A DNA stretch of 22,091 nt from IMG/VR virus record IMGVR_UViG_3300044641_005933, positions 1 to 22,091 of that record; one strand, written 5' to 3'. Below, in pieces: positions 15,231 through 17,358 of the stretch. The stretch is from a virus. The first letter of the stretch is position 1. Each line of letters begins with the position of its first letter. A model generated the notes under the pieces. That model was not told the DNA's origin, ran no database searches, and was given only the letters and a program-made list of their open reading frames with translations. The position numbers and the translations under genes were made by a program.

Positions 15231-15355
15231 TCGTGGTATCCTAAAATCGCGCCGCCGCGATTTCGAATATCGTCGAGACTGCGCTTTCCCCATGGCACCC
15301 AGATCCACTCGATTTTGCCTCCTTTCCATAGGACTTGTACGCACATGTATCGCAT
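15227..15355 (-). CDS. 42-residue coupled small protein
   Basis: Begins MRYMCVQVLWKGGKIEWIWV and ends RGGAILGYHE. The ATG overlaps the exonuclease stop (TAATG) and the TGA overlaps the next ATG (ATGA), so it is stitched into the string on both sides; this is the main evidence that it is real. It is basic and Trp-rich. A perfect 8-bp palindrome (AAATCGCG/CGCGATTT, 15244-15263) lies within the coding sequence, so I do not call it a terminator. Function unknown. Confidence 0.68.
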   Translation of the reverse strand: MRYMCVQVLWKGGKIEWIWVPWGKRSLDDIRNRGGAILGYHE

Positions 15356-16233
15356 TAGGAGCATCCAAGAGTCTGAAGAATCTTACCTTTGCGCTTTAGC
15401 ATGCTCTTAAACTCCAGCCCTTGAAAAAGTGTTTCAACATGAAGAGGAACAGGTGGACTCGATGCAAACCAATTCAGATCCGGGACGTCGTTCTCCAGAG
15501 TAACCAATCGCAAATTGCCGAGAAAGGTGGCTGCATGGGGAGCTACTTTCGGATGCAGACAGATTCGGTCAGCCCCCGTAAATTCCGGATTGATTTCGCT
15601 CGGGCGGGACTCCTCAATGATTTTGACAGCGGTTTTAGGCCCGATCCCTTTGATGCCAGCAACATTGTCACTGGAATCCCCCGCAAGGGCTTTAAAGTAT
15701 TTTACCTCGGCGGGGAACACCCCAAACTTCTCGACAACTTCGTCAATACCATATGTTTTCACCTTCTTCGCACTGTTGAATAGAATGACCTTAACCCGGT
15801 TCCCAACAAGCTGAAGCAAATCAGCGTCCACTGTAAGAATATGAATTTCACGATAAGCGGGAGAGTTGCGAGAGATTGTGGCAATAATATCGTCGGCTTC
15901 CCAACCTTTAACCCCTACCGGAGTGAAGCCAAGCGTCGGAAGAACATCCTGAACCAACAGAGACATGTCAGCATAGTGCTCCATGCTGCCCTTTTCCCGA
16001 TTACCCTTATAATCGTCGCTTAGTTTTTTACGAAAGTTCCCACCTGCGTCGTAGCAAGGGATAACAGAATCGTAGTCCCCTTTCTCAATAATGGAGAAGA
16101 TTGTGTTAAGGGTCCCGAAAGTGCCGGTTACAGGAATTCCGGCAGAGGTAGTCATTTCACCCATCGTGCGAGTGAGAGCGGAGCGAGAGCGGTGAAAAAC
16201 CGCATTCGTATCAATCAGGAGAAGGTCTTTCAT
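15355..16233 (-). CDS. 5'-3' exonuclease / flap endonuclease (FEN family)
   Basis: A 292-residue FEN-family nuclease like T5/T4 5'-nuclease and the PolA N-terminal domain. Acidic metal ligands: D8 (LIDTN), D62 (CYDAGGNFRKKL), WEADD (E112, D114, D115), VDAD (D136, D138) and GDSSDN (D186, D189). The helical clamp DNA-binding loop GIKGIGPK lies at 193-200. Family order and spacing are intact. It removes RNA primers and flaps during phage replication, and degrades nicked DNA. It starts by ATGA overlap with the phosphatase stop, in the same operon as the kinase and phosphatase. Terminal part (about 230-292) is less conserved. Confidence 0.93.
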   Translation of the reverse strand: MKDLLLIDTNAVFHRSRSALTRTMGEMTTSAGIPVTGTFGTLNTIFSIIEKGDYDSVIPCYDAGGNFRKKLSDDYKGNREKGSMEHYADMSLLVQDVLPTLGFTPVGVKGWEADDIIATISRNSPAYREIHILTVDADLLQLVGNRVKVILFNSAKKVKTYGIDEVVEKFGVFPAEVKYFKALAGDSSDNVAGIKGIGPKTAVKIIEESRPSEINPEFTGADRICLHPKVAPHAATFLGNLRLVTLENDVPDLNWFASSPPVPLHVETLFQGLEFKSMLKRKGKILQTLGCS

Positions 16234-16919
16234 TGTTGTTTCGAAAACTGGTAAAAGGTGTCTTGTGTAGCATTATAGGCGGTGAGCACCCCTGTAAAGA
16301 AGGCCCCCGAGTCCAGGCAAATTCCGTCGGGGATAGTGTACGGTTTTCCCTCTCCTACGCCGGTTTTCGGTGTGTGCCCAAAGACTATCTTTTTCAACTC
16401 TGGATTCCACTTTTCAAATTGAGGGCCCATCGACAAGAAAGGCTCTCTCATCCATAACAACTTATCCACTTTCCCCATGTCGACAAGCTCGTAAGGATCA
16501 CGTCCAGGGACGATGCCAGCGTGGGTGTAGAAGGTGTCACCCACCGTCATGTAGATTGGCAACTCAGCTAACCACTCCAAATGCTCTCGCATCTCCGCAA
16601 AGTCTTCAAAGTTCCCACCGTTCTGCAACCACAGCACATAGTCTGCACCTGAGCCCGTCATCGCGTCAACAAACATAGCCTCGTGATTTCCCATTAAACA
16701 GAAGAAGTTGCTGAGGCCAATGATCTCAGGCTCCCTCAACAATGACGAAACCACATCTAGAACCTTGACATCGTCTCCCCCGCGATCAATAATGTCTCCG
16801 AGCAAGATCACACAGGCTTGGCTACCTTGAACATATTCTAGAAACTTTTCTAGCAGAGGGTAGCAAGCATGAATGTCCCCTACCGCAATTACATCGCCAG
16901 GGTTAATATCAGAAGACAT
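16230..16919 (-). CDS. PPP-family metallophosphatase (lambda-phosphatase-like)
   Basis: A 229-residue protein with all PPP signatures: GDIH (14-17), GDIIDRG (41-47), GNHE (77-80), His133 (THAG) and GHTP (181-184). Two metal ions would be bound by D15, H17, D42, N78, H133 and H182. Members dephosphorylate proteins, diadenosine tetraphosphate or nucleic-acid ends. Because it directly follows a polynucleotide-kinase-like gene with an 11-base overlap, it may form a two-gene version of bacterial Pnkp, where a kinase and a PPP-type phosphatase are fused. Downstream is the 5'-3' exonuclease. Confidence 0.92.
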   Translation of the reverse strand: MSSDINPGDVIAVGDIHACYPLLEKFLEYVQGSQACVILLGDIIDRGGDDVKVLDVVSSLLREPEIIGLSNFFCLMGNHEAMFVDAMTGSGADYVLWLQNGGNFEDFAEMREHLEWLAELPIYMTVGDTFYTHAGIVPGRDPYELVDMGKVDKLLWMREPFLSMGPQFEKWNPELKKIVFGHTPKTGVGEGKPYTIPDGICLDSGAFFTGVLTAYNATQDTFYQFSKQQ

Positions 16920-17358
16920 GGTTTAGCCTGGAGAAAGGTTCTGAGTCAAGACCCTTGAGAGAACGTTGAAGCTCATTGTGCATTTCCTGAATGACATATT
17001 CTGGCACGTTGCGAGAACGTTCTCGGTTTCTTTTAAGGCACGTTTCCAAGGTTGGGTTTATAACTACCACTTCAATGTCTGTATAGCCGTATGAACTTAG
17101 GAGGGTAACAGCTTCTTCCCGGTAACTTTTTCGATAAAAAGTACCATCCAAAATAACAGGCATACCACACGCCTCAGAAACCAGCTCGTCAAACCGGTCC
17201 CAAATTTCCGACCAGGTTCCCTGGATTTCTGCGCTTCCGTAAAGTTCAGCGCGGATGTCGTCACCGCTGATAACAACAGCATTTTCGAGAGTTGCGAGTT
17301 TTTTGGCGTAGGTGGTTTTGCCAGCTCCGGGAGCCCCACACATTAGGAAGGCTTTCAT
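16909..17358 (-). CDS. Polynucleotide 5'-kinase-like P-loop protein
   Basis: A 149-residue kinase domain like T4 Pnk/bacterial Pnkp. Walker A is GAPGAGKTT (8-16), followed by ISGDDIRAELYG (30-41) whose Asp is the likely catalytic base, DGTFYRKSYREEA (71-83), and the lid RNRERSRNVPE (110-120) with several arginines. It would transfer the ATP gamma-phosphate to a 5'-OH of DNA or RNA. T4 Pnk also has a C-terminal HAD phosphatase, which is absent here; a PPP phosphatase gene follows instead. A nucleoside or other small-molecule substrate is also possible. Promoter 17380-17408. Confidence 0.8.
   Translation of the reverse strand: MKAFLMCGAPGAGKTTYAKKLATLENAVVISGDDIRAELYGSAEIQGTWSEIWDRFDELVSEACGMPVILDGTFYRKSYREEAVTLLSSYGYTDIEVVVINPTLETCLKRNRERSRNVPEYVIQEMHNELQRSLKGLDSEPFSRLNHVF

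Follow-up and report, generated by a model that had tools for sequence, protein, structure and literature searches.

The 22,091-base virus record IMGVR_UViG_3300044641_005933, analyzed over its whole length and called the window below, carries on its minus strand a kinase gene (KIN), a phosphatase gene (PPP) and an exonuclease gene (FEN), whose open reading frames (ORFs) overlap in that order. We consider it fairly probable that KIN and PPP belong to a distributed set for healing the ends of RNA, in particular of tRNA, in which the two enzymes are encoded by separate genes and an RNA ligase acts in trans. In such a set, KIN would phosphorylate 5'-OH ends and PPP would open 2',3'-cyclic phosphates and/or remove 3' (2') phosphates. 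The healed 5'-phosphate/3'-OH ends would be sealed by an ATP-dependent Rnl-type RNA ligase whose gene lies elsewhere in the genome, and the most likely substrate would be tRNA that ribotoxins or anticodon nucleases of the host have cleaved. The families to which the proteins belong are in keeping with each of these steps. A second phosphatase, of the T4-type HAD kind, may supplement or overlap the PPP step in most relatives. We infer the two activities, the RNA substrate, the cooperation with a ligase and the presence of a ligase gene in the window's own virus.

KIN (17358-16909) encodes a predicted stand-alone Pnk-type polynucleotide 5'-kinase of 149 residues and PPP (16919-16230) a predicted PPP-type, calcineurin-like and NinI-like phosphatase of 229 residues, both assigned from the ORF list, profile matches and predicted folds. 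FEN (16233-15355), assigned from profile matches, encodes a stand-alone 5'-3' exonuclease of the PolI N-terminal type with 292 residues. The KIN and PPP reading frames share 11 bases (16909..16919, minus strand), and those of PPP and FEN share the 4 bases ATGA (16230..16233, minus strand). An earlier note on this DNA had described a kinase, a PPP-type phosphatase and a 5'-3' exonuclease as overlapping genes at this place, and the coordinates, families and gene order it gave were all borne out. In the identifiers used below, L denotes a locus and G a record.

Profile searches matched KIN to AAA_33 (E 4e-24) and to the polynucleotide kinase family phrog_505 (E 1e-18), the latter over the N-terminal half of that profile. 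The AlphaFold model of KIN reached a mean predicted local distance difference test score (pLDDT) of 94.7. Its closest structure was the kinase domain of Clostridium Pnkp (4gp6; Z 20.4, root-mean-square deviation (rmsd) 1.9, 146 aligned residues, 30% identity), followed by T4 Pnk (Z 16.6, rmsd 2.0, 134 aligned). Pnk or Pnkp enzymes filled the 12 best structural rows. Active sites were compared using the residue numbering of Clostridium Pnkp and T4 Pnk, and K14, D33, D71 and R114 of KIN were invariant in all 23 aligned rows.

PPP matched Metallophos (E 2e-15) and the NinI-like family phrog_246 (E 4e-41); with this match and its PPP motifs, it counts as NinI-like. Its AlphaFold model had a mean pLDDT of 95.9. 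Ranked by Z, the closest structure was the phosphatase domain of Clostridium Pnkp (4j6o; Z 23.2, rmsd 2.3, 199 aligned, 25% identity), ahead of lambda phosphatase (Z 21.9, rmsd 2.7, 194 aligned) and ApaH (Z 21.3, rmsd 2.5, 200 aligned). Foldseek's own order was the opposite, placing lambda phosphatase (6.7e-13) ahead of Pnkp (7.7e-10). Nine residues (D15, H17, D42, R46, N78, H79, H133, H182 and D203) were invariant in 25 of 25 rows. The binuclear-metal active site is thus kept; it is common to PPP enzymes generally and so not specific to Pnkp. According to passages of PMC3407115, the histidine of the GNH[D/E] motif, H79 here, is tied to the 2',3'-cyclic phosphodiesterase activity of Clostridium Pnkp, without being its sole determinant. 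To judge from a title cited there (Keppetipola and Shuman, 2007), the 2',3'-cyclic phosphodiesterase activity of PPP enzymes has been investigated for the Pnkp as well as the lambda type.

The genomic environment of the two genes was evaluated by alignment searches of viral contigs, which gave 32 KIN loci and, for PPP, the best 80 of 543 relatives; these loci are partly non-independent, several contigs being near copies. PPP directly adjoins KIN in 29 of the 32 KIN loci. Among the remaining three, the contigs of L049 and L067 break off at the kinase or within it, and L052 has KIN but lacks PPP. Chance juxtaposition was ruled out as an origin of the cassette because this gene order is conserved across the contigs. 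Among the best 80 PPP loci, KIN lies within 600 bases of PPP in 29, namely all 25 loci with at least 49% PPP identity, L094 (44%) and the divergent L097, L103 and L104. In the last three, PPP is 31-33% identical and the order is swapped, with the phosphatase first. Among the loci examined, no single ORF matched the profiles of KIN and PPP together. In the flanks of 80 bacterial or archaeal PPP loci, searches at E 1e-5 detected neither KIN, FEN, HAD4 nor an NMNAT-like gene.

FEN follows PPP in 28 of the 29 KIN-PPP loci; the two genes are no more than 65 bases apart in 26 loci, and in the other two the gap between them holds an insertion of 719 or 895 bases. The insertions seen in this gap at L013 (1795-2616) and L015 (7244-7897) look related to homing endonucleases. 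FEN matches PF02739 (E 4e-33, 114.9 bits, cut-off 34.3) and PF01367 (E 6e-12, 46.4 bits, cut-off 40) and lacks the polymerase part, being related to the 5'-nuclease of DNA polymerase I but encoded as a protein of its own. FEN is probably co-transcribed with KIN and PPP, and would most simply be a replication or primer-removal enzyme, an operon companion and not a step of RNA repair. The nick repair involving FEN that the earlier note put forward had gene position as its whole basis and is not supported as written.

RNA ligases are frequent in the genomes that carry KIN. Sixteen of 17 KIN-bearing records of at least 40 kb encode an RNA ligase of family PF09511 and/or PF09414, the exception being G011 (41 kb). 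The T4 Rnl1-type ligase PF09511 was found in 17 of the 46 records searched, not including the window, and PF09414 in 2 of 18 and 10 of 28 records in the two record sets searched. The 386-residue ligase of G016 presumably resembles Deinococcus RNA ligase. The Rnl1-type gene lies 13.7-14.0 kb upstream of KIN on the same strand in G005, G006, G007, G008 and G012, and 3.2 to 34 kb upstream in the remaining records having one (G251, with a partial kinase match and its ligase on the other side, was excluded from these distances). In L097, a PF09511 ligase (E 6e-16) precedes PPP by 1.9 kb and KIN by 2.9 kb, with all three genes inside 4.5 kb. In the record of L103, HAD_PNKP, an Rnl1-type ligase, PPP and KIN lie inside about 13 kb, followed by a macro-domain gene. 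With the KIN of L097 as query, tblastn gave no match in phage records. The same kinase family was located near an RNA ligase gene in six of six other phages examined, of 177 records (StarPlatinum, Wakanda, MeganTheeKilla, Klebsiella PSKm4DII, Clavibacter CN1A and Bacillus KLEB27-3). As for the ligase elsewhere in the genome that the earlier note proposed as a check, relatives do encode RNA ligases and this fragment encodes none. A DNA ligase was rejected as a partner: PF01068 gave one match, below its cut-off, in 18 records, on an ORF that PF09414 also calls an RNA ligase.

As a control, 19 records of about 39 kb or more were chosen from the 51 PPP loci that have no KIN in the vicinity. A ligase over the cut-off was present in four of the 19, all four longer than 150 kb, and in none of 12 records of 39-69 kb and none of three of 107-221 kb.

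Two further genes recur around the cassette in relatives. A separate phosphatase, HAD_PNKP (PF25109, E 1e-14), was detected in 33 of 46 records, in 32 of them over the cut-off, as separate genes where they were read. It lies about 0.7-3.8 kb after the cassette and matches the C-terminal half of phrog_505 (residues 164-290). A cytidylyltransferase/NMNAT-like gene (CTP_transf_like) precedes KIN in most relatives; no NMNAT-like gene was found in the window.

Sequence kinship gives a different picture from fold. The whole-length family TIGR04075 scores KIN at 48.3 bits and PPP at 35.5 bits against a curated cut-off of 750, which a single domain cannot reach. In quick trees, three true Pnkps grouped apart in the tree of either domain, KIN fell weakly on the PseT side (support 77), and the PPP clade of the window also excluded lambda NinI and E. 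coli PphA; both trees have many open forks and long branches, and their three true Pnkps come from one phylum. In hhalign, the KIN profile gave E 3e-27 against PseT kinases and 4e-17 against Pnkp kinases, from reference sets that differ in size and diversity, with E-values that vary with set size. PPP was nearest to sets of six phage or viral-contig PPPs and four bacterial PPPs. Membership in bacterial Pnkp by sequence was thus ruled out by the TIGR04075 scores, both trees and hhalign.

Several observations weigh against a role of the pair in healing RNA ends. Profile and tRNA searches of the 22-kb window itself revealed no RNA ligase, HAD_PNKP or tRNA, although the ligase of the window's own virus would be out of view because the fragment stops 4.7 kb upstream of KIN. 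PPP is NinI-like by sequence, and this family is best known as protein phosphatases. PPP also occurs without KIN nearby in Synechococcus phage S-CBWM1 (L093; 42%) and in L095 (37%), where FEN lies apart, and L052 retains KIN without PPP. HAD_PNKP makes PPP look redundant in most relatives; since it doubles the 3' step, PPP may be a specialist for another end type. The presence of a TET/JBP oxygenase in 27 of 46 records means that KIN could belong to DNA modification. Finally, the association with ligases partly tracks genome size, as the ligases of the control were found only above 150 kb.

Of the alternatives, the one that survives best, possible but unlikely in our view, is a split T4-type Pnkp composed of KIN and the separate HAD_PNKP, PPP being an unrelated protein phosphatase for host takeover that shares the operon. 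KIN and the HAD gene correspond to the N- and C-terminal halves of phrog_505, PPP is NinI-like, and the KIN profile lies nearer to PseT than to Pnkp kinases in the hhalign comparison. Because HAD_PNKP occurs in 33 of 46 records, KIN could just as well be the N-terminal portion of a split T4-type Pnkp to which PPP was added. However, KIN and PPP occur together in the window and in its TET-adjacent relatives G001, G238 and G239 with no HAD_PNKP found in the fragment, KIN keeps a closer and more constant contact with PPP than with the HAD gene, and the fold of KIN is nearer to Pnkp than to T4 Pnk by a Z difference of 3.8.

A bolder proposal, which we hold to be quite doubtful, is that the two proteins assemble into a single complex, in which a phage kinase and a PPP of bacterial type that was recruited to it reconstitute a Pnkp in trans. 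This union would have arisen more than once, and the exonuclease would make the whole a healing-and-trimming operon for RNA/DNA hybrid ends in replication and for cut tRNAs. The pair is found in two arrangements, kinase-first in the window's clade and phosphatase-first in L097 and L103.

It is also improbable that the cassette processes DNA ends or nicks, KIN and PPP healing 5'-OH and 3'-phosphate DNA ends and FEN trimming flaps before ligation, in a phage that cuts or replicates modified DNA. The constant position of FEN directly after PPP (28 of 29 KIN-PPP loci) and the existence of a bacterial Pnk structure with DNA (title of PDB 4mde) would fit such a function. FEN is nevertheless easily explained by replication, and the kinase lies near RNA ligases in other phages. 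An ATP-dependent DNA ligase exceeded its cut-off in none of 18 records (the NAD-dependent type was not searched for), whereas RNA ligases are common.

We give a slim chance to the idea that KIN phosphorylates DNA bases as part of the nearby hypermodification cluster and is not an end kinase. Genes for TET, the amino acid:DNA transferase (ADDT) and Ploopntkinase3 do share its strand in the window, and TET/JBP is widespread in the records, but the cluster already has Ploopntkinase3 beside it and KIN has the fold and catalytic residues of Pnk. Records with KIN and without a TET match also exist (e.g. the fragments G250, 90 kb, and G256, 87 kb), and S-CBWM1, which has TET and a PPP of 42% identity, gave no KIN match in 10.7 kb around PPP. 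A small-molecule or counter-signal role, with PPP an ApaH-like nucleotide hydrolase and KIN a small-nucleotide kinase of NAD or nucleotide metabolism, is the least credible of all: it draws on the ApaH structures (Z 21.3) and on the CTP_transf_like gene ahead of KIN in most relatives, but KIN keeps the Pnk residues, its 12 best structural rows are all Pnk or Pnkp, and the window shows no NMNAT-like gene.

Returning to the healing of RNA ends, the setting of the lineage is consistent with tRNA as substrate. The closest isolate for both PPP and TET is S-CBWM1 (42% and 36.5%). A cyanobacterial host is likely, and the relatives form a family of large phages akin to those of cyanobacteria. The first 100 kb of the 201-kb record G016 contain 38 tRNA genes, the anticodon being unclear in two of them, as well as a permuted transfer-messenger RNA (tmRNA). 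Such translation genes beside RNA ligases fit the repair or replacement of defence-cut tRNAs discussed for jumbo phages in passages of PMC7824862. Countering host nucleases, as the earlier note had suggested, is a plausible, still putative function, for which we cite the tRNA and tmRNA genes of G016. The permuted tmRNA of G016 lies at L025 4423-4732 and carries the tag ANKIVKFERTAVAV.

Downstream of the cassette, on the minus strand, the window likely holds a DNA hypermodification cluster (14298-8972), whose members were assigned by profile matches. It comprises a TET/JBP oxygenase (14298-12889), ADDT (12785-11589), an inositol-phosphate synthase (11523-10375), a HAD-like protein (9858-9466) and Ploopntkinase3 (9469-8972), the last two overlapping. 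The inositol-phosphate synthase is unexpected there and might feed an inositol-type decoration of bases; a literature search on Tet_JBP with myo-inositol, phage and hypermodification found no paper. In the sister contig L002, the DNA is about 88-89% identical to the window on either side of ADDT. The ADDT protein of L002 (7540-8808), preceded by an HNH gene, is 24% identical to that of the window, so ADDT looks swapped between close phages. G013, G014, G016, G252, G254 and G257, among the 27 TET-bearing records of 46, have two TET/JBP matches each. With TET/JBP in 27 of 46 records, the lineage seems rich in modified DNA.

In G013 (L021 202-2597), a Ploopntkinase3-like P-loop kinase precedes a short PF09414 ligase and a gene resembling deoxyribosyltransferases, a hint that the roles of such kinases go beyond base modification; the kinase family was named from its sequence and the deoxyribosyltransferase-like neighbour via the relative in G016. 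Homing-endonuclease-like genes (GIY-YIG, HNH/NUMOD3) are scattered in the window at 3893-3114, 10397-9858 and 22025-21723. A DUF932/TIGR03299 protein (4815-3982) scores over its family cut-off, and the copy in S-CBWM1 lies near the PPP gene.

These results suggest that the combination of a Pnk kinase with a PPP phosphatase for end healing, which bacteria carry in a single protein, has a stable two-gene counterpart in a lineage of large, tRNA-rich phages, where it stands next to components of T4 type. Should the pair act on RNA ends, it could counter tRNA cleavage by the defences of environmental hosts, which are probably cyanobacteria, and RNA work might gain two small enzymes with one activity each. 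Phage genes labelled "NinI-like serine/threonine phosphatase" may then include RNA-repair enzymes.

Several known systems resemble the pair in part. Passages of PMC7824862 describe jumbo phages in which kinases, phosphoesterases and ATP-grasp RNA ligases co-occur, and suggest calcineurin-like domains as the 3'-end phosphatase in a small number of them; a conserved Pnk kinase-PPP-FEN triplet is not described in these passages. In the Pnkp1-Rnl-Hen1 complex of Capnocytophaga, healing and sealing are likewise divided among several proteins, but the kinase-phosphatase is one T4Pnkp-homologous protein (passages of PMC4411300). Lambda NinI (phrog_246) is closest to PPP by PHROG, by PDB sequence search and by Foldseek order, yet it stands alone among the nin genes with no kinase neighbour, and the PPP clade of the window is separate. 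With T4 Pnkp (PseT) and RNA ligase 1, the lineage shares a phage-borne kinase, an Rnl1-type ligase (17/46 records) and a separate HAD_PNKP (33/46). Unlike in T4, KIN is unfused to the HAD phosphatase and adjoins a PPP gene instead, and the 22 kb of the window show neither HAD_PNKP nor a ligase.

Bacterial Pnkp combines kinase, PPP phosphatase and ligase domains in one polypeptide. The enzyme of Clostridium thermocellum (TIGR04075) has the Pnk kinase and then the PPP phosphatase, in the same order as here; its domains are the best Z match to the folds of KIN and PPP, which keep the catalytic residues. In contrast, KIN and PPP are two genes without a ligase domain, score far under the TIGR04075 cut-off and form their own clades. 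The resemblance to a two-gene Pnkp drawn in the earlier note therefore stands for the overlapping separate genes, the folds, the invariant catalytic positions and the ligases of relatives, and fails for sequence grouping. Since the pair does not group with Pnkp by sequence and Foldseek puts lambda phosphatase first, "split Pnkp" names a likeness and not a descent: the pair in all likelihood works like the healing part of Pnkp without being a member of its family.

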